Shown here in pieces: positions 23,542 through 44,342 of a DNA stretch of 64,000 nucleotides. The notes beneath the pieces are model-generated. The model was given only the letters and a program-made list of their open reading frames with translations, made no database searches and was not told where the DNA came from. This stretch comes from a virus. A program made the translations under genes and the position numbers. Numbering within the stretch: position 1 is the first letter of the stretch; each line of letters opens with the position of its first letter. Where the stretch lies: the IMG/VR virus record IMGVR_UViG_3300044946_000078, positions 1 through 64,000 of that record; one strand, written 5' to 3'.

Positions 23542-26500
23542 TTAATTTATTTGAGTAAATCTACAATAACTACCTGCCGAATATACCGTTGTAGTCCCGT
23601 TCCCATTTGCGGCAAATCCAACGGTGGCGCTCCCTGATCCTGTACAGGTAATAGTTCCTTGAATATTAACCATTCCTATTCCCAATAAGGCAATAAAGGA
23701 TGCGCTTGTCGGTGACCCTATAGCTGCTTGAATATTTGTGAAAGTAGAAGAAGTTGTAGTCTCTCCAAAAGCCGTCACCTGCCCCGTAGCTGATCCTGAA
23801 GCTGCTATTACATTGACCGACGCAGCTCCTAATGCAGAAGAATTCCCTACCACTAAACGACAATCTACTGCGTAAGTGTGCCCACTTACCATATTAAAGC
23901 TAAAGATAGGCGACGAAGAAGTTGTTGCATTAGTCGCATTGGATGTTAATGCCTCTAAAGTGTCCAATTGAACCAATTTTGTTTTAACAACACCGGCTTC
24001 CACAACTAGCGCGCTATCTGAAGAAGGAGTGGTGGCTGATGGAAGCCCCCACAAAGTAGCCCCTGTTCTTATTAAAGCTGATCCATTAACATCTAATGTC
24101 TTTGATGGTGAATTAGTGTTTATCCCGATGCGGCCCGTGGTGCTTTGGGTGCTATCCCCTGTTAAATCGATTCCTGTACCATACAATACATTCCCAATTG
24201 TCAATGTATTTGAGCTATTATAAGTAGGCGGTTGAATGCTGTTCCCTATGATGATGTTTCCGTTGCCTGTATTCCAGGTATATCCTGCTCGATAACCTAA
24301 AGCAATATTTGTATTGCCATACATTGAACTTCCTGATTGAGTACCGAACAGAGTTAGATTTGATCCTATCGAATTCAATCCACTTTGTTTCCCAAATTCA
24401 GCATTATTAACGCCACTTACTCCAAGTTCACCGGCCGCCTCACCAAAGTATGAATTTGAATTCCCTCCTACATTATTTAATCCAGTAGCCCACCCAAACA
24501 TACTATTAGCTGTTGCTGAATTATTGGATTGATAACCTGCATCATAACCAAACAAAAGGCTTGTAGATGAATTAGATCCTCGAATGGAAGCGGTAATAGA
24601 TCCTGTCGTATCATATACCGTGAATGCAGGTGTCCACTGATTGTAATTTGGATATGGATAAATGTTAACCATATTTGCCTGGAACTGACCATTTACATTT
24701 TCATCTCCACCATGCCTTACGCCCATAAGCGCTAATGCTCCTTCTGCCCACACACGATGCCCTTGGTCGTTAGGGTGTACATTATATGTTGACGGAGAAA
24801 ATAAATCATTTGCGGCTCCGTTCCAAAGCATATTTTGATAATTGTTGACGAATATGCAATTATTGGCTAAAGCTGTGGCTTGCAAAGCTGCGGCAAATAA
24901 GGGCTGCTCTGTTGTATTATAACTAGACGTATCAACCCAATACCCAACGGACATCAATACAATCCTATTAGTTGGCCATCCGTGCGCTATAGCGGTATCA
25001 ATTCCGGCAACAATTGCGGACTGATACTGCGCTGTGGTAATAGTCTTAGAAACAAGATCATTAGTGCCATATTCCAATATTAACCATTGGGTTGAACTTG
25101 TATGCCCTGGAATTATATAAGTTGAATTATTCAAAAGCCTATCGACTAAAGACGAATCACCGACAGACTGACGATATGCTGTTGTTCCTCCAATTCCCCT
25201 ATTGACAACTGAACAGTTTAGGGCAGCACCCAATCTATTGGCATATCTAAACCACGTTTGTGATGCCCCAGTGCCGGCTGTAATACTATTCCCAACCACA
25301 TAGATGGTATTGCTACCGGCTAATTGAGCGCTTGTGTCGCCCGATTGAATAAATGTATTACTTCTTAATGTTCCCCTTACATCAGCCTTAAATCCAGAAT
25401 CTGCCGATGCAGAAGTAAAGCCATTTCCAAAAACTTCATTTCCTGTTAAACTGAATAATTGATTATAAGGCGTAAAGGTGGTCCCAATAAAAGACCCCTC
25501 GACCAATGAATTGGCAATAGAAGAAATAGAGCCTAAAAATCCACTCCCCGTACCGCCCAAGGAAGAATTAGACGCGCTCAAAACATCGGTAGCTAAATAA
25601 TTGGCACCATTATTTGTAATGGTAATAGAAGACACATCTGTCCCGGAAACTACGATTGTTGCCTGTGCGCCTGTCCCACTTCCTCCTGTCAAAGGAACGC
25701 TTGTATATGTCCCATTTACATATCCAGATCCGGCTGCGGAAATTGCTACCTTATTTATTGATCCGTATACATTATTATAAAGCCCGCTCACTTTTATATT
25801 TCCTGTGCTAATTTGTGCAGCTCCGAAAATGGTACCATTGATAACAGCCCGTGTCGATACTGTCAAAGTATCTGAAGTTATTTGTCCTTTAACTGCCAAT
25901 GGAACAAATCCTGGCAATTTACCTATGCCAATATTGTTACTTGTCGTATCTCCATTTAAAACAACATTCCCTAATGTTAAAGATTTGGCAGAATTCGCTA
26001 GATTATGTAAATAAAGTGTATCATTATTTAAAATAAAAACGCCGCTTTCATTGGGAAAGGTATCTACCTGGGGAGCTGCTGCTGAAATAAGCGCCTTACT
26101 CAATCTAATAATTGATCCGTTGCTTCCTTTAATATTTATTCCTGAGCTATCGTACATTTCATTACCAGAAGCCGGTATTGGTGTTAAAGTAGATTGTGGC
26201 AAGAACATATACGCCCCTCTGGTAAGCACATTACCATTTACGTCTAGTATCTGCTGTGGGTTGTATGTTCCTATGCCATTATTAATTCCGGGTTGCGTTA
26301 TCAATCCAATGGCACTATCTCCTCCAAAAGATCGTAGTAATAAAGATGCATTTACCAATTTACCAGACCCAGACACCCTTGATGCACCTGCCACAAATTG
26401 GGCTTCAGTGACTATAAAATCTTGATTAGTCCCGACATTATAGGTTGCCCCACTGTCGCTGGCGTATATCCCTGCATTATTTGCATTGGTTATGTTTGCA

Positions 26501-29343
26501 TTGGTGTTCCCAATTTGTAAAGGGCCATTGGGAGCAGCGCCAGTACCAATAGCCAAACCATTTCCATTTGTCCCATTTACTGCTGTAAATCTACCAACTT
26601 CAGAAGTAAAATGAACTTGTGTCCCAGCTGATATTTCATGCCCAGCATTTATAATCACACTTCCAGAAGTTCCAGAACCTGTCGCTAATCCAGGATTGAT
26701 GATTAAGTTTGATCCTGAAATATTAGACCCCAGCGCTATACTCGGGCTTACAGTAAAAGAGTGTGGCTGTGTGGCCTCAAATCCAGAACCACCATACAGG
26801 TTGGCAACATAATTTGTACTATCGCCTCCGACAACCATCGCGTGACCCAACGTTATTGTCGCATTATCGGATTGATCTCCACTTTGAGCGCCTAGAAAAA
26901 TATTGTTTGTTGAAGTATTATTTAATCCCGCCAACGGACCTATAGCAATAGATTTTGTAAAATTTGCATTTTCAGCGGCGGTTGATCCTATTATCACATC
27001 ATAATTGCCGGATACAAGTTCATATCCTGCAAAAGCTCCTACAACAGTATTGTTGCCGCCACTGGTTATATTTGCCAAAGAATTTGGACCCAACGTCACA
27101 TCATAATCAGCAGTGGTATTTACAGAACCAGAACCTCCGCCAACAAAAAGATTAAATGAAGGCCCCGATCCTCTAATTTGCAACACGGAAGTTGATGACG
27201 TGTCATTAATATTAAGATAGGACGGATTACCTCCGTATACATTTCGGTTTCCCCATAATGTCAATGTATTTCCTTCCAGGCCGGCTCTAGCTGTCAAAAA
27301 GCCACCATGTTTATCCGGCAGCGTAACTAAAAATGCCTCTGATTGAATCGTTTGCCCCCATGCGTTCTTATGAATATTATCATAAAATAGATCATTGTAC
27401 CCATTGGCCAGTTCCGCCGAATCGATATTTATGTAATAGCACCCTTTGGCTAATGCAATTGTCTGGATAGCAGCTGACCAAATAGGTGGATTTGCCGATG
27501 ATGCGTCCCGTCTTATTGGAACACCAGCGCATATTATTTTATTATACGGATATCCTCTATCTAAATGAAGAGAATCCATATAGGAAGAATAAGTAGCCTG
27601 AAACGTACTTAAACTCACTCCTGCACCCGGATCATTTTGGCCATAAAATATAACGATGTATCTATAATTCGTACTGTAATTGGGGACTTCATAAAACCTA
27701 TTGACGAAAGATGAATCTCCCGCACTGACCATGCAAAAGGTAGTACCAGGAATCCCCCTATTTACCTCGCGGGAATTTATGGCATTGGCTGTTTTAGAAG
27801 AGACGCCATCCGTGCGTGACGTAACGCCTACCCATGCCACCTGACTATCTCCCCACCACCACATTGAGTCGCTACCTAGTTGTGGAATTGTATCTCCCAC
27901 CATTGTCCAATTTAAAGGATAATCACTTTGATCAAATATCGGCAACGAGGAAGTATTTCCCCTAGTGAGAACACCTTGCAAATTACCAGCCGCACTGCTT
28001 GTATCAAATTGATATTGCGTTACATAGTCAATAGGTTTGGACGGAAGGCTATCTCCGTGCAGCATTAATGAATCACCGCCGCCAGGCACTTTTAATTCTG
28101 GTAAATAAATTATTCCATTAGCCAAAGATGTAGCAGCGGGATTTGCTTCTAAATAAAAGTTATATCCTAATTGATTTGATAATTGAATGCTTCCTGAATT
28201 TATGACTGAATATGAAAAATTTGAATTGCCCCCCTCGACAGAAATTCCCGATGGAATAACTTGTACATATGGATTCTGATTTGATTCAGAACCAATTGTT
28301 AGAGTGGGATGTCTTACGCCAGTATGTATTAAGTCAGTAAATATGAAATTGGTATCATTTGCTAAATATTTCCCAGCGCTATCATAAGGAACTCCATTTG
28401 GGTATAGAAGGTCATTGCCAAGGAAATTTGATCTTAGGGTATAGGATGAAGTCCCGTCGTAATTTAATAGTTGTACAAGCGACGCCGTATCGTTCCTATA
28501 CGGATTTCTTATCTGAATGGTATCGAAAATGGATCGCCCACCAGCAACTTGAAATAAAGCCTGTGGAGATGGCGTTCCTATTCCTACGCTATCATTTCCT
28601 CCTGTAACTGGATTGGAAGTTGGGGGGGTATATTGGGGGGAAAGATAGTTTGCATTCGCTCCCGATCCTCTAACAAATGAAACTGCCCCTGTAGAAGCAA
28701 AAGTGATATTAGGGTATGTCCCCGATAATGAAATATTTGCTCCGGCAATAGGATTGAATTGTGCCGGTATTGTTGGTTGATTGGTTAGATTGTTATAGTT
28801 GAGATAATCGGCCGGTGTCAGTCCATTGAATTTATTTACTGTTACGTTATTGATAGGTCCTGAAATATCACCACCTAAAGTAAGCGCCAATGAAAGATTG
28901 GGCGTAGTTGTGGGACTTGTTATTGTCCAAACTTGACCGGCATTATTTGTCGCTGTGATGTTGCTTACTGTACCGGTAGAAGTTACTGGGTCTATATTTA
29001 TTAAAACAAGATTCGAGTCAGCTACACCATTACGGAACATGTATTCAAAGGCTTGGCCGCCTATAAAAAATCCATTTGATTGGAGGGAGCCAGTATTGAC
29101 CCAATACGGAACATTACCAACCCTTGTTTGCGCAACGGGAAAATAGGTTAGAAGTTCAGTAGTAGATTGAAATTGACGGTATACTCCTCGACTTGCATCC
29201 CACATATAAGTCCTCATATCAGAAGGGAATGCTCCTTGGGGGGCCATTGGCTTGTTGAAAGTTTGGCCGATAGTGGGGTTGTATTGGGCCTTAGATTCTC
29301 CAACAATAAAAACAAGAAATATGAATATTATAATTTTCTTCAT
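23542..29343 (-). CDS. Giant fibre/adhesin with signal peptide and two SGNH hydrolase domains
   Basis: 1,933 aa. Seen in order: a Sec-type signal peptide (residues 1-19, ending ESKAQ); an N-terminal beta region; a first SGNH hydrolase domain (~495-660: GDSQ, NRGIPGTT, GQND, DNIH); GxxAG-type repeats and LDVNG; a second SGNH domain (~1345-1530: GNS, NRGIGGTT, GTND, NVHP); more such repeats and LDVNG; a beta-rich end. The two halves are a clear module duplication. SGNH enzymes remove acyl groups, so this is probably a receptor-binding fibre that deacylates surface polysaccharide. Signal peptides are unusual on virion proteins; export to the cell surface is an alternative. Confidence 0.75.
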   Translation of the reverse strand: MKKIIIFIFLVFIVGESKAQYNPTIGQTFNKPMAPQGAFPSDMRTYMWDASRGVYRQFQSTTELLTYFPVAQTRVGNVPYWVNTGSLQSNGFFIGGQAFEYMFRNGVADSNLVLINIDPVTSTGTVSNITATNNAGQVWTITSPTTTPNLSLALTLGGDISGPINNVTVNKFNGLTPADYLNYNNLTNQPTIPAQFNPIAGANISLSGTYPNITFASTGAVSFVRGSGANANYLSPQYTPPTSNPVTGGNDSVGIGTPSPQALFQVAGGRSIFDTIQIRNPYRNDTASLVQLLNYDGTSSYTLRSNFLGNDLLYPNGVPYDSAGKYLANDTNFIFTDLIHTGVRHPTLTIGSESNQNPYVQVIPSGISVEGGNSNFSYSVINSGSIQLSNQLGYNFYLEANPAATSLANGIIYLPELKVPGGGDSLMLHGDSLPSKPIDYVTQYQFDTSSAAGNLQGVLTRGNTSSLPIFDQSDYPLNWTMVGDTIPQLGSDSMWWWGDSQVAWVGVTSRTDGVSSKTANAINSREVNRGIPGTTFCMVSAGDSSFVNRFYEVPNYSTNYRYIVIFYGQNDPGAGVSLSTFQATYSSYMDSLHLDRGYPYNKIICAGVPIRRDASSANPPIWSAAIQTIALAKGCYYINIDSAELANGYNDLFYDNIHKNAWGQTIQSEAFLVTLPDKHGGFLTARAGLEGNTLTLWGNRNVYGGNPSYLNINDTSSTSVLQIRGSGPSFNLFVGGGSGSVNTTADYDVTLGPNSLANITSGGNNTVVGAFAGYELVSGNYDVIIGSTAAENANFTKSIAIGPLAGLNNTSTNNIFLGAQSGDQSDNATITLGHAMVVGGDSTNYVANLYGGSGFEATQPHSFTVSPSIALGSNISGSNLIINPGLATGSGTSGSVIINAGHEISAGTQVHFTSEVGRFTAVNGTNGNGLAIGTGAAPNGPLQIGNTNANITNANNAGIYASDSGATYNVGTNQDFIVTEAQFVAGASRVSGSGKLVNASLLLRSFGGDSAIGLITQPGINNGIGTYNPQQILDVNGNVLTRGAYMFLPQSTLTPIPASGNEMYDSSGINIKGSNGSIIRLSKALISAAAPQVDTFPNESGVFILNNDTLYLHNLANSAKSLTLGNVVLNGDTTSNNIGIGKLPGFVPLAVKGQITSDTLTVSTRAVINGTIFGAAQISTGNIKVSGLYNNVYGSINKVAISAAGSGYVNGTYTSVPLTGGSGTGAQATIVVSGTDVSSITITNNGANYLATDVLSASNSSLGGTGSGFLGSISSIANSLVEGSFIGTTFTPYNQLFSLTGNEVFGNGFTSASADSGFKADVRGTLRSNTFIQSGDTSAQLAGSNTIYVVGNSITAGTGASQTWFRYANRLGAALNCSVVNRGIGGTTAYRQSVGDSSLVDRLLNNSTYIIPGHTSSTQWLILEYGTNDLVSKTITTAQYQSAIVAGIDTAIAHGWPTNRIVLMSVGYWVDTSSYNTTEQPLFAAALQATALANNCIFVNNYQNMLWNGAANDLFSPSTYNVHPNDQGHRVWAEGALALMGVRHGGDENVNGQFQANMVNIYPYPNYNQWTPAFTVYDTTGSITASIRGSNSSTSLLFGYDAGYQSNNSATANSMFGWATGLNNVGGNSNSYFGEAAGELGVSGVNNAEFGKQSGLNSIGSNLTLFGTQSGSSMYGNTNIALGYRAGYTWNTGNGNIIIGNSIQPPTYNSSNTLTIGNVLYGTGIDLTGDSTQSTTGRIGINTNSPSKTLDVNGSALIRTGATLWGLPSATTPSSDSALVVEAGVVKTKLVQLDTLEALTSNATNATTSSSPIFSFNMVSGHTYAVDCRLVVGNSSALGAASVNVIAASGSATGQVTAFGETTTSSTFTNIQAAIGSPTSASFIALLGIGMVNIQGTITCTGSGSATVGFAANGNGTTTVYSAGSYCRFTQIN

Positions 29344-30803: not shown

Positions 30804-32015
30804 TTAAGCTAAATTTTGATCAGTGTTATTTTCTCGATAGGCTATTTTATTCATTATATCCAAAAGGCCCTTATCATCGAAGTTTGAAAAAACACGCTTG
30901 CCAGTAAAAGAATTCTTTATATCCGGGTCAGCTTTTATCTTTTGCAATAATTCTGGCGTTAAATCTTGGGTTCTTGCATCGTAGATCCCCTTTTTATGAG
31001 CCATATATCTTAACGCTTGTATGTCGCTCATGTTTTCGCTAGGGGCTATGTCATGCGTCGCGGCATTATGAGCTAGTTCGTCAGAAATAGATTGTCCTTG
31101 TTTTTCTGCGTATTGGGGCCAATATTTTTTGTCATCGCTCGTTGGCTGCGTTTCGCGTTGGAAAATATAGTCTTGCTCTACTGGGTTAAGCTGTGTTGAT
31201 TTGTATTCACCTGAATTTTGACCATGGGCTAGTTCGTGAACATCCGACTCCCCTCGTCCAGCCTTCAGCTCTTTGAGTTGATCTGGATTGACATTCATGC
31301 TATTGTCGGCGGAATCATAAACCGTTGCGCCATTTCTGACCACTTGGCCGTCTACGAGTTTCGTCCCCGATGTTTCGGAGAACTTGACATCTTTCAGTTG
31401 ATTATCCCTAGTTTGTTGTACATACGCTGGATCTTTCCAGAAGTTATTGAGTCTTTCCTTATATTTTGGCGATTCTATGTACGACTGTAGCCATTCTTGG
31501 GCATCTTTGTCCGTTGGATTAATTGCCGCTCCCGGTTTCTCTACCGGTTCTGCTGTGGGCTTATCGGGAGGGGTCAGATAATTTTTGGCATAGCTTTCAA
31601 TATCTGTTCCATGGTCTTGTATTTGTCTTCCTTTTGAATCTATTATCTTAGCTGTAGGGTAGAACAGGCTTGCCGTTTTTGAGTCAATCACCCCATTAAC
31701 TTCAGGTAATGGCTGCTTCATGAAAGCCGGATTCAATTTATTTCTAAGCGCCGACAATTGATCAGATGATAGGTCGCCAATTAAATCCCCATTTCTTATA
31801 TTATCATGGTCTTGTTGAACGGACGCAACATGATCAGGCGTTAGTTTAAAATCTGGATTTTGATTGGCATAATGAGCCATATAAGCATGGCCTAGTTCTG
31901 GATCAGCATCCAGATTGGCCTTTTGACTCCCCAAATAGGAAAGAAACCCATTCCATTGGCCTCTCTCATCTGGCGTAAGTGGCTTATAGTATCCTATTTT
32001 ATTATCAGTCGGCAT
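30804..32015 (-). CDS. Internal/virion protein with HEXXH metallopeptidase motif
   Basis: 403 aa. N-terminal half is helical and polar. Around residue 257 it has SDVHELAHGQN, an HEXXH zinc-peptidase signature, and ~50 residues later SDELAHNAA, which could supply the third ligand. This is the pattern of zinc metallopeptidase domains found in large phage and mobile-element proteins. It overlaps the giant internal-protein gene by one base. Likely injected with the DNA or needed for maturation proteolysis; a single motif, so activity is tentative. Confidence 0.6.
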   Translation of the reverse strand: MPTDNKIGYYKPLTPDERGQWNGFLSYLGSQKANLDADPELGHAYMAHYANQNPDFKLTPDHVASVQQDHDNIRNGDLIGDLSSDQLSALRNKLNPAFMKQPLPEVNGVIDSKTASLFYPTAKIIDSKGRQIQDHGTDIESYAKNYLTPPDKPTAEPVEKPGAAINPTDKDAQEWLQSYIESPKYKERLNNFWKDPAYVQQTRDNQLKDVKFSETSGTKLVDGQVVRNGATVYDSADNSMNVNPDQLKELKAGRGESDVHELAHGQNSGEYKSTQLNPVEQDYIFQRETQPTSDDKKYWPQYAEKQGQSISDELAHNAATHDIAPSENMSDIQALRYMAHKKGIYDARTQDLTPELLQKIKADPDIKNSFTGKRVFSNFDDKGLLDIMNKIAYRENNTDQNLA

Positions 32016-35000
32016 TACCTTTCTTCTTTTTCAGGAACGTTTTTATTGAGCCATGGCAAGCCAGATTCTATTGGCTGACCCATGTTTTCAGGAGCATATT
32101 TTGTACCACCACTTTGCCATTGTGATATTTGTTGGAGCAACACAGGGTCAACTGTATTTTTAGCCAAATCGTTGAAATATTGGCCACGTCCTTTTTCGGT
32201 AGAAAGATTGCCAATGTTTGACGGGAATAGCGGCGCTTCTTCAGCGAGTCCCATCATAGAGGCTATGATGGCATTCGTCATATGTGGATCATCGTCTGTA
32301 TCCACCGATTTATCCATTAACTTCCTCGCAGTAGCGCCCAATTGCATAGTCTGAAATACCGGCGATTCTAAAAGCCAGCGAGGCACATTTACGCCCATTA
32401 CATTGGCCTCTCCCCAATTTGGTTCACCATCTTCCTTCTTTTCGCCCTTTTGATAAAAGCCACCGAAATGTTCGGGATTTAACGCTCCAATAGTCAATAA
32501 TGCTGCCCCAAATGACCCTTTCTTTAAGTTTCTCATTATCCTATTGGCCATTTCGGGCTCCATATTGTCAAACGATTTTTTCATTAATTGGCTAGTAATA
32601 TCCCATCCAGCCCTAAGAAGACCGCCGCCGGCCAATGTCCCCGTTTCTCCAATAATATTAGTAGGCACTTTAACAAAAGGAATAAACCATTTCAAGCCAG
32701 TTGCTACGGCCTTGCCTCCGGGCTTATCACTTTTTTCTAGGCTCCTGATAGTTGCCTTATAGGCATCTGTTACTAAGTTATCGCTCATGAATATAGCCCT
32801 ATCTGCATCTTTAACTGCTTGAATAGCCATTTTTTCTATTAGAACAGGATCTTTTACATTGACCCCATTTTTCATGTTATTAAATGTCTGATTCATAAAA
32901 GACTTCTCAAATATTGCTCTTCTAATGGGCGTTTTTATTGTTTTATGAATCCGACCAAAAAAGTTAATTCCTTCATCAGGCATAGGTGATTTGCCTCCTA
33001 AAACATCTATTTCTGTTTGATGGCCCGTCTTTTTATCCCAAACATCACCAATATCTTTTATACCCTTTATAATGCCGTCAGTAAATATTTTAGCTTCAGC
33101 AGCAATATGTAAATTACCTTCGGAGGTTGCTTGCTTTGCTATTTTTGAAATGCCGGGGATTTTAGAGAGAAGCCCTCCAATAGCATCTTCCACTGGCGTC
33201 TGGACAAGTCTAGTCACGCCAGCCGCTCCCAACTTAGCCAATGTAGTTATTCCAGATAATTTTGCCTCTCTTTCATAATTCAAGAAAATGTCTCCTGCTT
33301 TTTCGGCCCATGCTTTATTGACTGGCGCGGCAATCTGTGACACCTTTTGATTAAAATTATTTTGAGCCTTCCTTAAATTGGTTAAGGCCGTTCTGATTGC
33401 CCCAGCTTGATTTGATTTTTGAGAAGTAAATCCAGCCGTAGCCATTTTTTGCAATTTATCTTCCTGGTCATTTATTTCATTAAATGAATTTTTTACATCA
33501 TTCATTTCTTCTATAGTCAATTTAGCCCCATCTCCTTTAGCTGCTCTCATTCTATTGACCATGTTTTCCAAAGAATATTGATTTCTGGCGATTATTTGTC
33601 GAGTAGCTAACCCACGGGCATTTTCTGTACCAGCTTTTTTACCAGCATCATATACATCTTGAAGCTGTGCTAAAAGCGCTTGCTGACGCACATGGAGATC
33701 ATCAATAGAATTTTGATCTTTAGCTTCTTGTGCCTTAATTAGTCCTTCTTGGGTTTGCCCTAGTTGAGATTCAAGGCCAATTTGATGTTTAAGGACCACT
33801 GCATTTTCAACATCTGACCAAGGACGCGGTTTCTTTAAAGTAGATGATATGATGGTTGTGGCACTCATTTTATTATTATCAATAGCATCTTGGGCTTCTT
33901 GCCATATTTCTCCAAATTCTTTTCTGGCTGTTTTTTCTGCCTCCGGTAATCCAAATTGGGCCCGCTTAACTCCTGTTACCTTATTCATCAAGGATGTTAA
34001 TTGAGGATCTATTTTTTCTCCTGATCCTTCTTTTTTTTCATTGCTACTGTTTTCGGTAAATTCTTGGGGTCCTTCGTTTTGTCCGCCCACTCCTGGGCGA
34101 AGGGCTTCTTCGTTGCGAACGCCCATTTCATTTGTTGTTTGCTCTGGAATGGCATTGGGATTTTGTTTTAAGAGTTTTGGTTCATTATCCTCGATAAATA
34201 ACTTTGCTCCATCCTCATCATTAATCGCATGAGCCTTATTTTTTAACTCTTCGATAGTCTGTTTCATTCGTACCATATCGGGATCATTCGGATCTGCTCC
34301 GCCTTCGATAAGACGGTCGTAGCTCCCCTGTACCGCGTCGGCAGCCCAATTAGGATGCTCGTTGTCATTTATTTCTATTGCGCTAGGGGGCGCTTTTTCA
34401 CCAGATACTACCTCGTGAATTAAATTAGAGGTGTGAATTGTTCGAGGCAAGTCAGATGAGATTATTTTTGGTATTTGCCTGCCATTCAATTTATTTAAAA
34501 GTTCCTCACCGGCGGCTTTTGCTTCGTTGATCCCATTTTCGGTAAGTTGGGCATCGTTGCTTCTGAAGAATCCTGCGGCGTTGTCGTCCGTTTCCCCGTG
34601 CCTGACGACATGAATTTGTTCATCAGGGCTAGTTGATTGTTCTTGGGCAGCTTTAGAAAGTCCGCCATTTTGAACTGCGTCCGAATTTTCGGGATCATTG
34701 AGGAACTCTTCAAAAAGGGATTTAGTCTCATTGTTGGCTGTTATATGTTGTAAAGTAAGTTGATACGCTAGGTCATCAGCGGCATCCCCTTTAAATGTTC
34801 TTTTTTGTCCATCCGGGGTTTCCAGATTAACCGAAACGATATTGCCGTCTTTGTCTCTATTGATAGCCTGTATGGGATCATCAAAAGTGTTTACATATTT
34901 TTGACCCCTCACTATTATATTGCCATCATTATCAATTTTAGCCGTAGGCTCTTGTGTTTGTATATTAAAGCTGGTTACCGGTTGATCGGATAGCTTGTCT

Positions 35001-37762
35001 ACATTGCCTAATTCATATTCCCTATTTGTTCCGTCAATTTTAGCAATAATCGTTTGACCATCTTGTTCAATGGTTGCTTTCTGCCCCTTGTACATTACCG
35101 GTTTGCCAATTACATCGCTCATTTTAGCAATATCTGAAGATGATGCCTTTTTATTAAAGGACTCAACAGCTCCCGGTTCGATTGATTGATCGTTATATTT
35201 ATCTGCAAATTCTTTTTCCTGCTCTGGCGTTAAATTATCTATATCAGGTCGCCCCATATCGTCCCATACTTTATAGGCCTTTAGGACGCTGCTATGGGTA
35301 ACTACCGTTGTGTTGTTGGGGTCTTCATCCAATGACTTTTTGAATGCCGGGATAACCCTTCCTAAAAAATCTCTAAACGTTTCACCAGTTTCACCAATCG
35401 GCTTATCCCAAGATGATATATCCTTTGCTATTTGATCTTTTGCTATTGGTGTTTCTGGGGTCTTCCCATCTGCATAATCTCCGTAATCAATAGTTCTAAG
35501 GGATTTATCCGGCTGGATAGTATTAGAAATAGGTTCGTGGGTATTTGATTCATTTTCATCTCCTGGTTCAATATGATTAATTCTTGCTGTATATTCTGGC
35601 ATCGATTCGATAGGATGCATCTCTTGAGCAATATCAATAAGTCCTTTCCCAAAGATATTTTCAGCCCCTTTCGAACGATTTGGATCGTAGGACTGTTCCG
35701 CAACCTCTCTTAACAATTGGGGCAGTTGTTCGGGTGTTGCATTTTCAAATATTGACTTACTATATCCTTTTATTTCTCCTTTGGCTATTTCGGCTTGCGC
35801 TTTCCCTACAAGATCATCGGACGATGGTTTTGAACTGAGCGATTTGATCTGCTCGTTAAGACCACTTAAATGTTCTTCCATTTGTGGCCTATAAGCATCA
35901 TCTGCATTTTCCAACGCGGCCTTTATATCATTTCTTTGTTTAAGGAGGTCTAATACTTTGGGTACATTTTGTGACGGTATATCGGTAGGCAACTTTCCCA
36001 ATGTTTCTTTTAAGTCTAAAAAGTCTTTAGCGTGTGCTTCGGCTTCATTGGGCAATAAGATACCATCCTTAACTAGGGTTGCCAGTGATTTATTTATTTC
36101 ATCTTGTGGGGCGGTAGCTATCAGGGCTTTTATATTGTTTGCCGATTTTTTACTGAACATTTCGGGAGACTTCAACAATGTTCCCAATATTCCAGTGAAA
36201 GCGGCTGCCCCCTCTCCGGCTTCTGGAACATCTTCAAATATTGGCCTGTTATTGGATAAGTTCGTTAGAACTTGAGTCCCTGATCCAATAAGCCCTTGCA
36301 TTCCTGCCTCTTTACCTATCTTACCAAGGCTTTGAACTACTGAATTTTTAGCAGCGGGAGTTAATTGAAGACCGCCCTTAATCAGGGGGTTTTCAAATGA
36401 GGGCGCACCTTCTGCACCAAATTTAGCTCCGGCATAGGTCATTAGCGCACCCTGCGCACCCTGAAGGGCACTTTCCCTTGTTCCCCTATTCTGAGCTATT
36501 TCCAAAGCTTCCTGCGGATCTTTCCCTTCATCTCTTAATTGACGATAATTATTTGTTACAGATTGGGCATATGCTCTTTGCATTATTTCTGGTGTAGTAA
36601 CTGCCGTTGCTGCGACTGGTCCTAACTCAGGACTACCGAAGAGTGAGCCACCAATACCACCAACAATACCAGTCGTTAATCCTTCAGCGGTTAATATGCC
36701 TTGCCCCCCCACAAAAGCGCCAGGAACACCACCAAAGCCTTTTGGAACCGGGATAGGTTCATCTGGATCATGCCTATGATAATCAGTTTCGAGCTTATTT
36801 ATGATGTCATTATCATTAGAATTAGCCAGAAAGTCGTAGTCATCAAGGTCCTTATTTCTTTTAGCGAAGGCCGTTCCCATTGCTTCAAAGAAGTTGGTTT
36901 GCGGCCGCGTTACTTGTCCGGTGGACGCATCGTATCCAAGATCACCAGTCCCTATCTTTTCGGCGTTTGAAAGTATTTTTGATGCGTTATATGACCGATT
37001 CCCAGAGGATGCTAAATAGGCGCTTCTGTTTACCTGATTTGCTATCTCTGGGTGATCATTAGCTATCTGTTTAATGAATTGTCCTGTAGTATTCCCCGTT
37101 GCGTCATTAGCTAAGTTTATTTTAGCCGCCGCCGCGTATCCGGTTTCTGGATCTAGCGCTTGATCATGGATATTTTTTATTTGCTCCTTTAGTTTCTGGA
37201 ACTTTTCGCTATTAGATGAAATATCAATGGGGTTAAGATTTGCACCTTTAATGGCGGCTTCTACTTGTTTTTGAACAAAATCAGATGCCATTTTTGTGGC
37301 TGCCGATTTAGAATACTTATCAATATTAGCCGCCGTATTCTTTTGTTCTTGATCGACTATTGCGGCATGTGCCTCGGGAGCAGATCTACCTATATTTGGT
37401 GATGGTATTGGAGCCCCGGGTATTTGTGGTTGCTGGGGTTCTGGTTGATACTGTAACGATTGTCCCGTTGCTGGCTGAAAGTTTGCGGGATTTACTTGGT
37501 TGGTAGCCTGTTTACTTGCTGCTTTTTGATAAAAATCGTCAAATCCTATTGTAAAATTCCCCTTTATGTATTTGCCATTTTCTCCATATGCTTGATCCAT
37601 TCCATTATAGACCTTTTGGGCATAGGAACTATCACTCATTTTTTGAGCGAATTGATCATACGGCAAATTAAAATTGCCTTTAGCATAAGCCCCATTATCT
37701 CCGTATGCTTGTTGCATACCTTGATAAACCTTTTGCAAATATGGATTATCTCCCTGCGGCAT
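32015..37762 (-). CDS. Giant internal (cargo) protein with permuted histidine-phosphatase segments
   Basis: 1,915 aa, the largest gene but one. Seen: two N-terminal tandem units of about 40 residues (KVYQGMQQAYG / KVYNGMDQAYG, each ending KGNF-x5-6-F); a helical and membrane-interacting-looking region; at ~750-830 a block with IDYGDY, GETFRDFLGRV and VVTHSSV, which are the C-terminal half of a histidine phosphatase; at ~1050-1110 RHGETDDN...LPRTIHTS, the N-terminal half; then long coiled coils and a C-terminal part with GLKWFIPFVKVPTNIIGE, a motif of large phage polyvalent/internal proteins. Probably packaged in the capsid and ejected. I saw no virion-RNA-polymerase signature. Confidence 0.7.
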   Translation of the reverse strand: MPQGDNPYLQKVYQGMQQAYGDNGAYAKGNFNLPYDQFAQKMSDSSYAQKVYNGMDQAYGENGKYIKGNFTIGFDDFYQKAASKQATNQVNPANFQPATGQSLQYQPEPQQPQIPGAPIPSPNIGRSAPEAHAAIVDQEQKNTAANIDKYSKSAATKMASDFVQKQVEAAIKGANLNPIDISSNSEKFQKLKEQIKNIHDQALDPETGYAAAAKINLANDATGNTTGQFIKQIANDHPEIANQVNRSAYLASSGNRSYNASKILSNAEKIGTGDLGYDASTGQVTRPQTNFFEAMGTAFAKRNKDLDDYDFLANSNDNDIINKLETDYHRHDPDEPIPVPKGFGGVPGAFVGGQGILTAEGLTTGIVGGIGGSLFGSPELGPVAATAVTTPEIMQRAYAQSVTNNYRQLRDEGKDPQEALEIAQNRGTRESALQGAQGALMTYAGAKFGAEGAPSFENPLIKGGLQLTPAAKNSVVQSLGKIGKEAGMQGLIGSGTQVLTNLSNNRPIFEDVPEAGEGAAAFTGILGTLLKSPEMFSKKSANNIKALIATAPQDEINKSLATLVKDGILLPNEAEAHAKDFLDLKETLGKLPTDIPSQNVPKVLDLLKQRNDIKAALENADDAYRPQMEEHLSGLNEQIKSLSSKPSSDDLVGKAQAEIAKGEIKGYSKSIFENATPEQLPQLLREVAEQSYDPNRSKGAENIFGKGLIDIAQEMHPIESMPEYTARINHIEPGDENESNTHEPISNTIQPDKSLRTIDYGDYADGKTPETPIAKDQIAKDISSWDKPIGETGETFRDFLGRVIPAFKKSLDEDPNNTTVVTHSSVLKAYKVWDDMGRPDIDNLTPEQEKEFADKYNDQSIEPGAVESFNKKASSSDIAKMSDVIGKPVMYKGQKATIEQDGQTIIAKIDGTNREYELGNVDKLSDQPVTSFNIQTQEPTAKIDNDGNIIVRGQKYVNTFDDPIQAINRDKDGNIVSVNLETPDGQKRTFKGDAADDLAYQLTLQHITANNETKSLFEEFLNDPENSDAVQNGGLSKAAQEQSTSPDEQIHVVRHGETDDNAAGFFRSNDAQLTENGINEAKAAGEELLNKLNGRQIPKIISSDLPRTIHTSNLIHEVVSGEKAPPSAIEINDNEHPNWAADAVQGSYDRLIEGGADPNDPDMVRMKQTIEELKNKAHAINDEDGAKLFIEDNEPKLLKQNPNAIPEQTTNEMGVRNEEALRPGVGGQNEGPQEFTENSSNEKKEGSGEKIDPQLTSLMNKVTGVKRAQFGLPEAEKTARKEFGEIWQEAQDAIDNNKMSATTIISSTLKKPRPWSDVENAVVLKHQIGLESQLGQTQEGLIKAQEAKDQNSIDDLHVRQQALLAQLQDVYDAGKKAGTENARGLATRQIIARNQYSLENMVNRMRAAKGDGAKLTIEEMNDVKNSFNEINDQEDKLQKMATAGFTSQKSNQAGAIRTALTNLRKAQNNFNQKVSQIAAPVNKAWAEKAGDIFLNYEREAKLSGITTLAKLGAAGVTRLVQTPVEDAIGGLLSKIPGISKIAKQATSEGNLHIAAEAKIFTDGIIKGIKDIGDVWDKKTGHQTEIDVLGGKSPMPDEGINFFGRIHKTIKTPIRRAIFEKSFMNQTFNNMKNGVNVKDPVLIEKMAIQAVKDADRAIFMSDNLVTDAYKATIRSLEKSDKPGGKAVATGLKWFIPFVKVPTNIIGETGTLAGGGLLRAGWDITSQLMKKSFDNMEPEMANRIMRNLKKGSFGAALLTIGALNPEHFGGFYQKGEKKEDGEPNWGEANVMGVNVPRWLLESPVFQTMQLGATARKLMDKSVDTDDDPHMTNAIIASMMGLAEEAPLFPSNIGNLSTEKGRGQYFNDLAKNTVDPVLLQQISQWQSGGTKYAPENMGQPIESGLPWLNKNVPEKEER

Positions 37763-37765
37763 ATA

Positions 37766-39196
37766 TTAATTGAATGCTCCTGCGTTTTCTTTTACGTTAG
37801 CTGTTTTTGTTGTTGGTGGCGTTACTTGTGGATTAACTCCGGTACCCGCCAACGATGCTGGTAACCCCTTTATGGTTTTACCTATTTCTGTTTTCAATGA
37901 ATTGGCATCGTACCATTCATTGTTATTGTAGTATGGATCAAGCATTGGCGTTCCGTCATCATTCATTATTGGCTGTCCGGTATGCTTATTCTTTTTATAG
38001 AATATCCCCCTTACTGCTGAGCCATCTGAATTGAATGTGTAGGTGTCTGGGAGCACTTTATGCGAATATGTCCCTTGACCTAGGGATCGAAGGATTATAT
38101 AATCTTTATTTTTAGGTTCAAATTCTTGCGTTCCATCTGGATGAACAATGGGATTGGCTTGAGCATCTTTCCATGAATTATCTACGTGGCTACTATTGGC
38201 TGCTGCTTGGGTCGATGCGTCCTGCATCTTATACCAATGATTATAATCAACTAATTCTTTTCTGTCCCCTTGTCTAACTCCTTCCATTTGTAGCCTATTT
38301 CTTTGCAATATATTTTGATGAGCAGCAAAATTGGGCTTAATCAAGGGCGCTCCTTCCGTATTTAATGCAGCGTTCGATGCTATATGAAATCCAGCAAATA
38401 GTTCTGCCGAATTTTGAGGAGGTCTTCCATATGCGTCCACGAATGCCTTATAAGATTGCGTATACAGAGCCGGATCATTTACTATTCGATCCGCCTGTGC
38501 TTGGATGCGTCTATCTGTGCCGTATAATGTCATAGCCGCATTTCCATAGGCCTGTTTTTGGGTTTTATCATACCCCATAGGAATGTATAGATTCCCATCC
38601 GATTTTGTTTGTGCAGGTCCTATTGGAACCATTTTAATATTCTTCATGAGTCCTGCCTGTTGCGCTTGTAATGTTTTGGCGTCCAGTGGCTGCGTATTCA
38701 TATGAAGCTCATTAATATCTAGGGGCTTACTTCCTGGCGAATTTATTGGCAAATTATTGGCATGGAGGGAGGGGATAATTTGATCATTATCGAATAAGTA
38801 GCTCCTAGTTGGATCTGACCTTAATTTTAATACCTGATCACTTATATTCTGACGATCTTTACTGCTTTGAATAAAGGCCATAGCATCATTGTAGCGAGCA
38901 TTATTTTCATTAAGCGCAACTCCTTTATCATTACCTGGATGTAAAATATTTTCTTTATTTTCGGCATAATGATCCTGCCACGCGTTGACTTTACTTAAAT
39001 AATCTGGCATATCCGCCGGTCGTACCCCGTCTGGATTTAATTCCTTGTGCTGGTTCTGATAGTATTCATTTAAAGAATCATCCCTAGCTTGTTTCCTTGC
39101 TAGAAGATTGGCAGCAAAAGAAACTGCTGGTGATGTATCTATTGGTACCGCACCTGCCGTATATAATCCCCCTGGTAAATTAATTCCGTCAGCCAT
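37766..39196 (-). CDS. Cargo-like internal virion protein
   Basis: 476 aa, unrecognised. Asn/Gln/Tyr-rich, helical with repeated NKE/YNN-type segments, no cysteine. Position between the 224-aa and 1,915-aa proteins is that of the ejected internal proteins in podovirus-like Bacteroidota phages. Gap to the next gene is 3 bases. Confidence 0.55.
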   Translation of the reverse strand: MADGINLPGGLYTAGAVPIDTSPAVSFAANLLARKQARDDSLNEYYQNQHKELNPDGVRPADMPDYLSKVNAWQDHYAENKENILHPGNDKGVALNENNARYNDAMAFIQSSKDRQNISDQVLKLRSDPTRSYLFDNDQIIPSLHANNLPINSPGSKPLDINELHMNTQPLDAKTLQAQQAGLMKNIKMVPIGPAQTKSDGNLYIPMGYDKTQKQAYGNAAMTLYGTDRRIQAQADRIVNDPALYTQSYKAFVDAYGRPPQNSAELFAGFHIASNAALNTEGAPLIKPNFAAHQNILQRNRLQMEGVRQGDRKELVDYNHWYKMQDASTQAAANSSHVDNSWKDAQANPIVHPDGTQEFEPKNKDYIILRSLGQGTYSHKVLPDTYTFNSDGSAVRGIFYKKNKHTGQPIMNDDGTPMLDPYYNNNEWYDANSLKTEIGKTIKGLPASLAGTGVNPQVTPPTTKTANVKENAGAFN

Positions 39197-39205
39197 TCTT
39201 AAAGT

Positions 39206-39880
39206 TTAATAAGGTAACCCCATTGGAATATCGGTATTAGGTTGTCGTGAGTAAACAGAAGATGCTGTCCCAGATAAATTATATGGTGCCGGAGAGGAGC
39301 TACCATTATTTGTCCCGTACATTTTATTAAGCATCATTTGATTGCTCAAACTATTTAATCCGCTATTAAATGTCTGTAGCCCGGCATTAGCCACCTGATT
39401 TTGCCCCGCCGCCTTCATCGCCAATAGATTATAATTTCTCGTAAATGGTTGAACCTGATTTATATCAAAAGCTTGTTCCTGTTGTTGGGTTTGCGCACCA
39501 GCAGCTTGCCCCAATTGCGCTAGGGCCGAAGACTGTTGTTGTTGAACTGCTGCCGTATTTGCTAACTGAGCGCCTTGCGAGCCAGCTACAACTGCCCCAA
39601 CACCACCTATTGCCGACCGGCGATCTTGTAGCCCCTGTATCCCGGCAGCTTGAGCACTTTGTATATTTTGTAACTGCTGCTGATATGCTGCATTTTGGTA
39701 TGGGTTAAGGCTATATCTGGCTAATGCCTTTTGATAGTAATCGGCAATAGATTGACTAGGGGTATAGACCAGACTTTGCTTGCGCTCTAATTCCTCTTGC
39801 GTTTTATGTGCCTGAATGCCTTTATATATTGTTTCTCCGGCCCCTATGGCTAATGATGCTATTGGTATTGCTACTGGCAT
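39206..39880 (-). CDS. Gln/Ala-rich internal virion protein
   Basis: 224 aa. Starts with a short hydrophobic helix (VAIPIASLAIGAG), then long helices extremely rich in Gln, Ala and Asn (QQQLQNIQSAQAAGIQ; VQQQQSSALAQLGQAAGAQ). This matches the small ejection proteins (T7 gp14 type) that form a trans-envelope channel. Assignment by composition and place. Confidence 0.6.
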   Translation of the reverse strand: MPVAIPIASLAIGAGETIYKGIQAHKTQEELERKQSLVYTPSQSIADYYQKALARYSLNPYQNAAYQQQLQNIQSAQAAGIQGLQDRRSAIGGVGAVVAGSQGAQLANTAAVQQQQSSALAQLGQAAGAQTQQQEQAFDINQVQPFTRNYNLLAMKAAGQNQVANAGLQTFNSGLNSLSNQMMLNKMYGTNNGSSSPAPYNLSGTASSVYSRQPNTDIPMGLPY

Positions 39881-40322: not shown

Positions 40323-43300
40323 TTATGAAGCATTTAATGGCGAAGTGATGTATTTAAGCTTTACCTCCGAAATCCACACAAGGCCTGTCGGATTGGTCAC
40401 TTGTAATTGAATTCCCAAATAAGATCCTTTCATAGTATATCCATTTATCCACCCTCCCGGAGAATTAATATCCCTCATAAAACTGGTTTCAAATAGCCCT
40501 TCTAAGGTAGCAAAATTAGCTGGTATTAGCTTACTTTGTTGCCGAGTAGTTCCGTATGTATATTGATTCGTATAAATGAGCGGCGCTTCCCAAATCTGAG
40601 ACGCCAATTCGGCAATAGAAATGAAAGTTTTCTTTTCTATTAAATTCTGGTTGAATACTGTTTTTACATAACAGGGATATTGCACGCCAAAATAATTACA
40701 ATAAGGTGCTGTATTAGTATTCGGATTATTATCGTGAAAGTATAATTGCCCATTGAGGAATGTATAAAAATCTTCTTCAGCCGAAATTATCCATTCGGCT
40801 TCATTAAAGCTATATTTTGATCCATAAGCGTTGTTCTTTTCATTAAAGGCAATAGCGTAGTTTTGTATCGTTTGTGCCCCATTGGTACCAGCCTGTAAAA
40901 TTCCTATCCATTCTTCCTCAAAGAAATTATAGCATCCAATAATCCTAGCATTAGATCCGTCAGCTTTTGTCCAATTGCTAAGATATGGCGTAATGAGAGA
41001 CCGGATATAATATTGTCCTTTATACAATTCACTGACCGGAATTAGTCCATCTTGACTAAGACGAACCATATAGCCTCTAACCGGATCAAAAAAGTAATCC
41101 TGAATTTTGCCGGATACAAGGCTTTCGGGATGGTTACCTAGTCCAAATTCGCCTTCATAATATGGGGTATTCCCTATGGTAATGATGGCATTCGTCGTGG
41201 TAAGGACATTTTCTCCTGATGCTTGATTTATGAAGCTATTATAAACGCCTTTCTCAAAGCATCCTCTTGCTTGGAATCCACGTAATATCCTATCTCTTGA
41301 TTTTAAGCGTAATAGTGGCCCCTTTGCTCGATCTACTTCATCTTGGTTCTGATCATAGAACCTATTTAATTGGTTTATTTCAGTCCCAAATTGATCCGAC
41401 AGGCTCCATCTTAAAAGTGTTTCAAATGTATTTTGTTGAGCATTATCATCATAGGGCAATGGACGTAGATTGGCATTGTAGACTATGTTATAGGCGTCGT
41501 CAAAACTAGAATCCATAACGGGAATAGTTATGTAATTAAGGACATCCAGCCTTAAAGTAAAACCGCCTACTTGGCCAGTAAAGTTAGTGTCAATCCCTGG
41601 CAAAAATCCATAGAATAACCAAGCTTGCGTATTAGCAGGAATAGTTATAATTACATCTACCACTACTTCATATCCCTGAACGGTTGCCTCTTCTGTAAGA
41701 TTGAAATTTTGGAATAAATATTGGAATTGAGTAGGCGGTATATTAGCAGCATTCATAAAATATAGTGCCCCAAAAACAGTACAGCTTGTTGTGGCATTTA
41801 GGGGAATAGTTCCTCTAAGACGTATATTTTGCGGGCTACTTGTTTCATTCCAGTAAAGTGCCCTATCTGCATTTGTAGGAGAATATTGGGGATAATTGCC
41901 AGGCCCAAACCCTACTCCATTTTGTAATTGCTGATTTATTTGGTATGGTGCTGATCCAGCAGTAGGATTAACGACTCCTTGTGGATTCTCTGTTGCCTGA
42001 GTCGTAAATGTTTGAGAATGCTGGGAAAAGGCACATTGTTGTGCATTTATATAATAGCTTAACCCTGTAGGCACTTGTCTTTCTCTATAGAAAAAATCCC
42101 CATCCGACATTCTTATTATTGCCGGTGTTGTATAATCGATTGATTGAGATTGATCTGATCCTATATGAAATGCCGTATTGGTTCCTGGATTGCCTATCGC
42201 ATATTGTCTCCCAAAATCATAAAAAACTTCCTGATCTTCTGTGACTCGCTTTGCGTAATTATATATTAATATTTTATATCGCTGAAAATTGTCCGATTGA
42301 AGAGGCGTCAATCCACTTGCAAATCCAAAATTGAATGATGCACTAATATCAGTAGTTGGGTATATTATCTTGATAAAAGACCCCTCTTGAATAATCCCAT
42401 TTAATACCGGATCTGTTTCAACTGAAACTATTTGATAATCATTCGCAGGACTCATCTGAACAGAGCTGCCATTCAAGGGATAGTTTATTAAAAATCTGAT
42501 TCTATCGCCTTGTGAAAATGTATATCCGACAACTGGTGTGCCTCCTGGATTTGCAGTCGTTACATTTTCATTGTATAATTCCATATTTGAATATCCAATG
42601 TAAGCATATTGGTAACCAGTTGCTAGGTCAGTATTGACAAAAGTCTGGTTACATATCCACATTAAATATTTATCATAGGTTAGATTTAACGATCTTACAA
42701 TTGAATAGTAATAGGCATAAAGAGGTGGCTGATTATTGATAGTAGCTATTATCTGTGGTGTAAGATTACCAGATAAATCATTTAAAGTGGTGATCCCATT
42801 ATTGGAAGGGAATTGAGCCCCTATTGTTCTACCTTTTTGATCATAATAGCATACAGCCAATTGATATGCGCATCTGTCTACAAAAGAATATACGGATTCG
42901 GTATATGGAGAACTTCCTCCCGTTGTTGAGTTAGTTGTTTGGGCATAGTACAATGATACATTAGTCAATGATACGGTGAATGAATTTGCCCCAACTGAAC
43001 CAACTAATGTAAATCCTTTAACCTCGGCGGCCGCTAAAATACCATCAAGAATTGTGGCAATCGAGGTATTTGATCCGCTTGAATATTGGAATGAATTATT
43101 TGTTCCAGCAACACCATAGGTCACTGTATAGTTTAGCCCGTTGCCGGGGATATTTCCCGCTCCGTCATTTGTCCCAAATAAATATATTGTTATGTTATCG
43201 CCAACATTACCATAGGAATCAAGTCCAGATTGAGACGCAAAAAACAAAAGGCCATTTATATCATTAACAGGAGGTATATAATTAAGATTGGATGTTAAGG

Positions 43301-44342
43301 TCATATTTATCGGAGTCTGATTGTATCCCTCCGTAATATTCCCCATTATAATGGTATTACCATTTAACAATTCTAGGCATTGGGCCGCAATGGGACAGAA
43401 ATCAAAAAGTTGAACGATTTGGGCCGGATCGGCAGATACATATACGCCATCATTATAAAAGTCAAATTGATAAATGCTATTATCTGGTATAGCCAACATT
43501 GCTTTATCGAACGACTCAACCAAAAGCCAATTGCTATTCTCAACATTATCTGTTGCTTGCTGCACCCATAATTCAATTTTTATTACATCTTCATCTCCTG
43601 TTGAAAAAAAAGTGTAAATAAAATTATTGCTTGTCTGATCGCTATATATATCTTGGTTGAATGTTTCATTTGGTAGTGACACTCTACTACCGACACTATA
43701 TACAGGTTTCATGTAATCTCTGTATACGTATCTGGTCCTAAACTTGAACAAGGCATTTTGCAGATTATTCAAATTAGTAGATGGATCGTTGCCATAACAA
43801 CATCTGACGGGACACCTGGGCGGCGCTTTTGCCAAATCGATGAATGACCGCTTAGTTACTGCATAAGGAGTATTTAAGAAGAAAAGTATATTGATGCAAG
43901 TTGGTCTCCCTTGACTATCCAGGTAAACGAGTAAATCCCCTTGAATATCTTCTTGGTATACGATAACTATAGAAAGAATTGGATTATTAAGTGTAAACCC
44001 AAGTATATCCCCTTGGGTAGCCGAACCATTTATTAAAAGGGTTTGAATTGTTTTAGGAACGGTATTGTATATGAATATGGCATGATTGCCGTTACTATTC
44101 CAGTTGAACCAAATTATCCTTTGGCTTACTTGGTCATAAAATGCACCTATACATTCATTATTCCCAGCCGGAAGTGCAGAATTGGATATTAATGAATTCC
44201 CTATTATATTTTGAACTCGCCTATTATTAGCTTCACCCCTATACACTACATTTAAAGCGTCCAATACTGAAAAAAAGTCTACTTCCGTCTCGGATAAGTC
44301 GGTATCTAAAATAGCATTGAATCTTTTTATCTGTACTGGCAT
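40323..44342 (-). CDS. Large tail-hub (muzzle-like) protein
   Basis: 1,339 aa, mainly beta (Tyr/Asn/Thr-rich), starting MPVQIKRFNAILDTDLSETEV, without coiled coils or transmembrane parts. Length, beta content and place directly downstream of connector genes and upstream of the cargo genes match the tail muzzle/stabilisation protein of crAss-like phages, which closes the tail barrel. A C-terminal RYMVRLSQ-type beta domain and SEAEWIISAEED segment are seen. Identity by position; no short motif is decisive. Confidence 0.6.
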   Translation of the reverse strand: MPVQIKRFNAILDTDLSETEVDFFSVLDALNVVYRGEANNRRVQNIIGNSLISNSALPAGNNECIGAFYDQVSQRIIWFNWNSNGNHAIFIYNTVPKTIQTLLINGSATQGDILGFTLNNPILSIVIVYQEDIQGDLLVYLDSQGRPTCINILFFLNTPYAVTKRSFIDLAKAPPRCPVRCCYGNDPSTNLNNLQNALFKFRTRYVYRDYMKPVYSVGSRVSLPNETFNQDIYSDQTSNNFIYTFFSTGDEDVIKIELWVQQATDNVENSNWLLVESFDKAMLAIPDNSIYQFDFYNDGVYVSADPAQIVQLFDFCPIAAQCLELLNGNTIIMGNITEGYNQTPINMTLTSNLNYIPPVNDINGLLFFASQSGLDSYGNVGDNITIYLFGTNDGAGNIPGNGLNYTVTYGVAGTNNSFQYSSGSNTSIATILDGILAAAEVKGFTLVGSVGANSFTVSLTNVSLYYAQTTNSTTGGSSPYTESVYSFVDRCAYQLAVCYYDQKGRTIGAQFPSNNGITTLNDLSGNLTPQIIATINNQPPLYAYYYSIVRSLNLTYDKYLMWICNQTFVNTDLATGYQYAYIGYSNMELYNENVTTANPGGTPVVGYTFSQGDRIRFLINYPLNGSSVQMSPANDYQIVSVETDPVLNGIIQEGSFIKIIYPTTDISASFNFGFASGLTPLQSDNFQRYKILIYNYAKRVTEDQEVFYDFGRQYAIGNPGTNTAFHIGSDQSQSIDYTTPAIIRMSDGDFFYRERQVPTGLSYYINAQQCAFSQHSQTFTTQATENPQGVVNPTAGSAPYQINQQLQNGVGFGPGNYPQYSPTNADRALYWNETSSPQNIRLRGTIPLNATTSCTVFGALYFMNAANIPPTQFQYLFQNFNLTEEATVQGYEVVVDVIITIPANTQAWLFYGFLPGIDTNFTGQVGGFTLRLDVLNYITIPVMDSSFDDAYNIVYNANLRPLPYDDNAQQNTFETLLRWSLSDQFGTEINQLNRFYDQNQDEVDRAKGPLLRLKSRDRILRGFQARGCFEKGVYNSFINQASGENVLTTTNAIITIGNTPYYEGEFGLGNHPESLVSGKIQDYFFDPVRGYMVRLSQDGLIPVSELYKGQYYIRSLITPYLSNWTKADGSNARIIGCYNFFEEEWIGILQAGTNGAQTIQNYAIAFNEKNNAYGSKYSFNEAEWIISAEEDFYTFLNGQLYFHDNNPNTNTAPYCNYFGVQYPCYVKTVFNQNLIEKKTFISIAELASQIWEAPLIYTNQYTYGTTRQQSKLIPANFATLEGLFETSFMRDINSPGGWINGYTMKGSYLGIQLQVTNPTGLVWISEVKLKYITSPLNAS

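Follow-up and report, generated by a model that had tools for sequence, protein, structure and literature searches.

Can the two halves of a histidine phosphatase, encoded in reversed order within one giant viral protein, form a single domain, and what would such a domain do for a phage? The question is raised by a 64,000-nucleotide stretch of the virus record IMGVR_UViG_3300044946_000078, referred to here as the window. A first-pass annotation, made from the letters alone, had noticed motifs of the C-terminal half of the family ahead of those of the N-terminal half in a protein of 1915 amino acids, and had offered two explanations: circular permutation, or complementary pieces that pair in trans between copies. 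The parts of this protein are as follows.

32015..37762, minus strand: giant open reading frame, putative crassvirus-type internal or cargo (ejection) protein with a permuted domain
35147..35554, minus strand: C-terminal half of the phosphatase, which comes first, residues 737-872 (PF00300 positions 69-153, TIGR03162 67-151, permuted-family profile 3-130)
34622..35146, minus strand: insert between the halves, residues 873-1047, an SH3/Tudor-like plus PH-like module by fold comparison, with matches in the giants of L276 and L245
34394..34645, minus strand: N-terminal half of the phosphatase, which comes second, residues 1040-1123 (PF00300 positions 1-66, permuted-family profile 124-203)

The giant contains no cysteine and no 19-residue stretch of strong hydrophobicity. 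The motifs lie within a few residues of where they had been placed, with IDYGDY (758-763), GETFRDFLGRV (793-803) and VVTHSSV (820-826) preceding RHGETDDN (1054-1061) and LPRTIHTS (1105-1112). In Pfam profile searches, His_Phos_1 (PF00300) was the sole domain above cut-off, and it matched in two complementary pieces of reversed order, at residues ~747-829 (34.4 bits) and, for the first 66 of its 194 positions, at residues 1050-1118 (48.9 bits), with a total E of 3.8e-21. Each half alone exceeds the curated cut-off of 21.7 bits, which bears out the proposed two-half family match. The alpha-ribazole phosphatase profile TIGR03162 (176 positions) is split alike, into 1-64 and 67-151. Because the pieces of both profiles are complementary at the same point, the cut is clean: the profile core is neither lost nor repeated, and its order alone is reversed. 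The N-half match begins a few residues within the insert. The permuted-family profile scored 202.6 bits on the giant protein, compared with 8.3 bits for the best of 500 shuffles. Neither half has its usual partner beside it, as had been remarked; profile searches found no further histidine-phosphatase piece elsewhere in the 75.6-kb virus record, and residues 1123-1200 gave no profile match to a remnant second C-half.

The same C-half-then-N-half order was found in 19 more uncultured phage contigs, making 20 copies including the window. A first scan of viral contigs by N-half alignment returned 20 loci, and 16 of these have the C-half directly ahead of the N-half within one open reading frame; L205, L208 and the complete form of L216 came from a second scan, bringing the set to 19 contigs and the window. 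When aligned, the relatives run from the C-half and its last strand through a turn of ~6 residues (typically KGDNGD) into the strand leading to RHGET, at the point where the window has its insert of ~170 residues. The permuted domain of L208 is a free-standing protein of 313 amino acids. In L216 (9803-10880, on the same contig as L108) the frame of the domain stays open only if TGA encodes Trp, which makes a TGA=Trp code probable for this phage. The window comes from one metagenomic record of a virus, and misassembly or a chimeric contig might have swapped the halves; however, the 19 other contigs share the order while their flanking domains and in-protein positions differ, and this explanation, already refuted, retains a negligible probability. 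The reversed order is a real circular permutation, neither chance nor an assembly effect, and the window domain is described here as a circularly permuted variant by descent that lacks the half order of ordinary members.

Structure prediction addresses how the halves are arranged. An AlphaFold model of the window domain, made with its natural alignment, reached pLDDT 90-97 over most of both halves, with low values in parts of the insert. For the insert-free domain of the relative L101, mean pLDDT was 92.3 and pTM 0.88; because of this pTM, the relative placement of the two halves in the model is confident, and they are predicted to form one compact fold. In this model, strands 127-132 and 135-141 make up the joining hairpin and lead into RHG. 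A comparison with VIA-align returned histidine phosphatases in each of its 38 best rows, the nearest structures being alpha-ribazole phosphatase and phosphoglycerate mutases. Model residues 2-136 aligned to the C-terminal region of the chains, with a best Z of 5.8 for alpha-ribazole phosphatase; on the Trichomonas vaginalis phosphoglycerate mutase 9zax_A, model residues 2-135 were matched to chain residues 71-228. One row, the sister entry 9nv5_C, matched the N-half instead, with model residues 133-207 on its residues 8-82 (rmsd 1.7, 32% identity). The modest Z reflects the sequential aligner, which uses one half at a time, as a circular permutation predicts. Foldseek gave no histidine-phosphatase match for either model in the PDB and only a half-match in BFVD, an expected failure since it also aligns in sequence order. 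With the halves aligned separately, the predicted fold is the alpha/beta/alpha fold of histidine phosphatases.

The annotation had named as outcomes against its proposal halves that lie far apart or form separate domains, or a half without a significant profile match, and neither was seen. Its trans-pairing alternative, a domain swap in which neither copy folds alone, draws on the ~170 residues between the halves in the window. Against this, the halves are directly joined in the 19 short-turn relatives, L208 is a single-domain protein, structure prediction gives a compact monomer at high confidence, and the intervening residues are a recognizable module at the hairpin tip; we consider trans pairing very unlikely. 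The same relatives and fold support the circular-permutation alternative, with a branch 1 histidine-phosphatase domain that would fold in cis. In such a domain, the old last strand and old first strand would be joined via a short beta-hairpin, the new termini would fall in the loop that runs from the helix following LPRTIHTS to the strand LRTIDYGD, and the phage of the window would have acquired its SH3/PH-like module at the hairpin tip.

That module occupies the tip of what in relatives is the joining hairpin and, by fold, consists of an SH3/Tudor-like barrel and a PH-like domain (weak Z). It matches residues 735-901 of the L276 giant (E 3e-52) and residues 1158-1318 of the L245 giant (E 1e-41), both of which carry it without a detected phosphatase, and for this reason it looks like a module moving between cargo proteins. 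Separately, a GNAT-acetyltransferase-like stretch was observed in L008 (11815-19263; Gundel_1) and in one of 25 giants scanned, which suggests that the enzymatic cargo modules of such giants are a wider set.

The phage itself is distantly related, by its TerL (22-28% identity), to Pachyviridae, Pervagoviridae and elemoviruses. The genes upstream of the giant link it to crassvirus virion proteins.

40323..44342, minus strand: homologue of the muzzle (tail-tip) protein, 1339 amino acids (PF25729 crAss_MUZ_C; iterative search from crAss001 gp44)
37766..39880, minus strand: two open reading frames between muzzle and giant, of 476 amino acids (37766-39196) and 224 amino acids (39206-39880), in the place of crAss001 gp45/gp46

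The muzzle homologue matched PF25729 just under the cut-off (E 2e-5) and reached E 8e-134 in the iterative search; the muzzle C-terminal domain was present in 13 of 24 records checked. The window order of muzzle (40323-44342), small, medium and giant proteins is that of crAss001 gp44-gp47, so that the giant lies downstream of the muzzle gene and smaller cargo-type genes, the arrangement that marks crassvirus cargo (crAss001 gp45, gp46, gp47, gp49, gp50). The 476-aa and 224-aa proteins share position with crAss001 cargo and gave no sequence match to it; likewise, the giant gave none to gp47, gp49 or gp50. Among permuted-domain proteins, five (L207, L212, L213, L214, L218) carry the domain fused at the N-terminus of a gp49 homologue, and in three others (L206, L210, L215) it lies at the giant's C-terminus, just before the gp49 homologue. 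In crAss001, gp46, gp47, gp49 and gp50 are virion cargo by mass spectrometry and are presumed to enter the host by extrusion in a partly unfolded state (PMC10172136). The five fusions are the strongest link to virion cargo; the window giant is linked to it by gene position only, and a virion-carried effector role for its domain is plausible. In contrast to these likenesses, the crAss001 annotation and paper name no histidine-phosphatase domain. The podophage ejection proteins of T7 (gp14/gp15/gp16) and P22 likewise comprise small, medium and giant internal proteins in a row (general knowledge and PMC10172136), a likeness to the window genes in order and role only.

The domain might instead act in the producing cell or in virion assembly rather than following delivery to a new host. 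That the protein is packed and ejected is deduced from gene position and homology, and in L208 the domain is a separate small protein, both of which leave room for such a role; yet the domain is fused to giants that occupy the positions of crassvirus cargo, and five of these giants are homologous to gp49, a virion cargo protein (PMC10172136); we regard action in the producing cell or in assembly as unlikely.

Other proteins near the giant were noted in passing. The adjacent 403-aa protein (30804-32015) has HELAHGQ (HExxH) and a phage tail family match and is metallopeptidase-like; in L211, one open reading frame of 929 amino acids combines a homologue of this protein with a homologue of the 476-aa one. 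Further along the window (23542-29343), a tail-type protein of 1933 amino acids has a domain of the GDSL lipase/esterase type (E 5e-30) and may deacetylate surface glycans.

A scan with the muzzle protein recovered 80 related phage loci, 12 of which have a histidine phosphatase in the downstream giant open reading frame, five of them permuted (L233-L236, L238) and seven in normal order (L240, L243, L271, L283, L294, L300, L301). The window giant aligns with the L271 giant over residues 94 to 720, up to the domain, and past the domain similarity resumes between the window (NAIPEQTTNEMGVRN) and L294 (NAIPEQATGEMGVRN). Because the giants align on both sides of the domain, one and the same slot in these orthologues holds the permuted form, the normal form or, in L276, the SH3/PH module alone. 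In a phylogenetic tree, all phage forms make up one clade apart from cellular forms (98/91), and the permuted state needs one change with moderate support (79/83; 78% of bootstrap trees). Read most simply, this means a single permutation in a phage lineage, followed by spread between proteins, with the domain now found within the giant in the window group, free in L208, and at the gp49-associated sites described above. The duplication intermediate expected for a permutation was not found; L301 was considered as a C-N-C intermediate and rejected, its first 'C-half' being a low-quality alignment to shared upstream helices.

Catalytic residues were compared in a virtually re-ordered alignment of 20 permuted, eight normal-order phage and 28 cellular sequences. 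Eight residues are invariant in all 20 permuted copies, namely Arg1054, His1055, Gly1056, Asp1060, Asn1061, Arg1107, Glu794 and His823 (window numbers). The positions of most interest are these.

34598..34603, minus strand: Arg1054-His1055 of RHGET, phosphate-binding Arg and nucleophilic His
34442..34444, minus strand: Arg1107 of LPRTIHTS, second phosphate-binding Arg
35294..35296, minus strand: His823 of VVTHSSV, second catalytic His
35492..35494, minus strand: Thr757, in the position normally held by the Glu proton donor (Glu83 of PhoE)

The domain thus shares with branch 1 of the histidine phosphatases (PF00300; CobC/TIGR03162, PhoE, phosphoglycerate mutase) the RHG nucleophile, two arginines and second histidine. 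It differs in the order of its halves, which in the window and 19 relatives do not run N-half before C-half, in THS/THN for THG, and in its setting within giant phage proteins and a phage-only clade. The acidic proton donor is also missing: its place is occupied by Glu in 28 of 28 cellular relatives but by Thr in 15 permuted copies and Ala in four, with a gap in one. Asp1060, invariant in the permuted set and present in only 4 of the 28 cellular forms, may be a candidate acid. Purifying selection on the permuted domain was shown by dN/dS of 0.10-0.18 in three unsaturated pairs.

The missing proton donor raises the prospect of a pseudo-phosphatase, in which fold and phosphate pocket are kept for binding a ligand or partner without turnover, or as a structural module of the cargo protein. 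The replacement of Glu by Thr/Ala in permuted copies favours it, as do the normal-order versions in the same slot: among L240, L271, L283, L294, L300 and L301, five have a degenerate RHG (SEHGED or RHADT), while L240 keeps RHG and Glu, and these decayed sites indicate that the slot tolerates loss of activity. However, proton donors vary across the histidine phosphatase superfamily (PMC12051542) and the branch-2 enzyme MINPP has alanine at this place (PMC11836120), so the lost Glu does not prove inactivity; moreover, His1055, His823, both arginines, Asp1060 and Asn1061 are invariant in 20 diverged copies and not obviously needed for binding alone. We therefore rate a pseudo-phosphatase as rather unlikely, if less so than a role in the producing cell.

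The explanation that we consider probable is a cis-folding permuted branch 1 domain in a cargo/ejection-type virion giant of a crassvirus-related podophage, with His1055 as phospho-acceptor acting early in infection. The giant would be packed in the virion, ejected into the host and refolded there. His1055, with His823, Arg1054 and Arg1107, would dephosphorylate or bind a phosphorylated host molecule at this early stage; phosphotransfer to His1055 would be followed by release by water, aided by His823 and an acid other than the usual Glu. Our guess from chemistry is a phosphoramidate or acyl phosphate substrate, whose leaving group needs little protonation and would suit the domain because the usual acid is missing.

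The permuted form was not encountered outside these uncultured phages. No match to the giant was returned by tblastn against 50,697 phage records, and three permuted domains searched likewise against deposited phage records gave weak N-half matches or none. A single-sequence scan returned no close homologues of the permuted region or the portal, and the domain was not found in plasmids. Among 395 genomes of Bacteroidota, the likely hosts, none had a permuted copy at E 1e-22; known positives score 1e-76 or better and clear this threshold by 50 orders of magnitude. Histidine phosphatases were lacking in cultured TerL kin (Maribacter phage Panino, Cellulophaga phi19:3 and phi38:1, Calle_1, an elemovirus, Gundel_1) and in 38 TerL-related contigs. 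PADLOC gave no defence-system match, and no evidence was found for a defence or counter-defence role of the permuted domain.

Polyvalent proteins of phages and conjugative elements (Iyer et al., 2017, PMC5512222) resemble the giant in being very large, multi-module and encoded beside late virion genes, with swappable modules. They have at least two known domains of unrelated activity; the window giant has one recognizable enzymatic domain, His_Phos_1 by Pfam, and the SH3/PH-like insert by fold only; the text of that paper contains neither 'phosphatase' nor permutation. In the open-access literature, a coverage that leaves most subscription journals outside, we found no report of a circularly permuted histidine phosphatase and no link of histidine phosphatases to crAss-like phages or virions.

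The permuted domain is genuine and conserved, and it adds a new variant to a known superfamily. Since normal and permuted forms occupy one slot in orthologous proteins, they offer a natural case for studying protein-fold rearrangement. More tentatively, and at somewhat less than even odds in our judgement, the domain was born once in crassvirus-related phages, spread among giant cargo proteins and is injected with the genome to alter a phosphorylated molecule of the host (a metabolite, a signal or phosphohistidine) at the onset of infection; if true, virion-delivered effectors would gain a new class. The L208 protein is of a size suited to expression and assay, and with a concrete enzyme-like module named in the cargo that crAss-like phages may deliver, the question of cargo function becomes testable.
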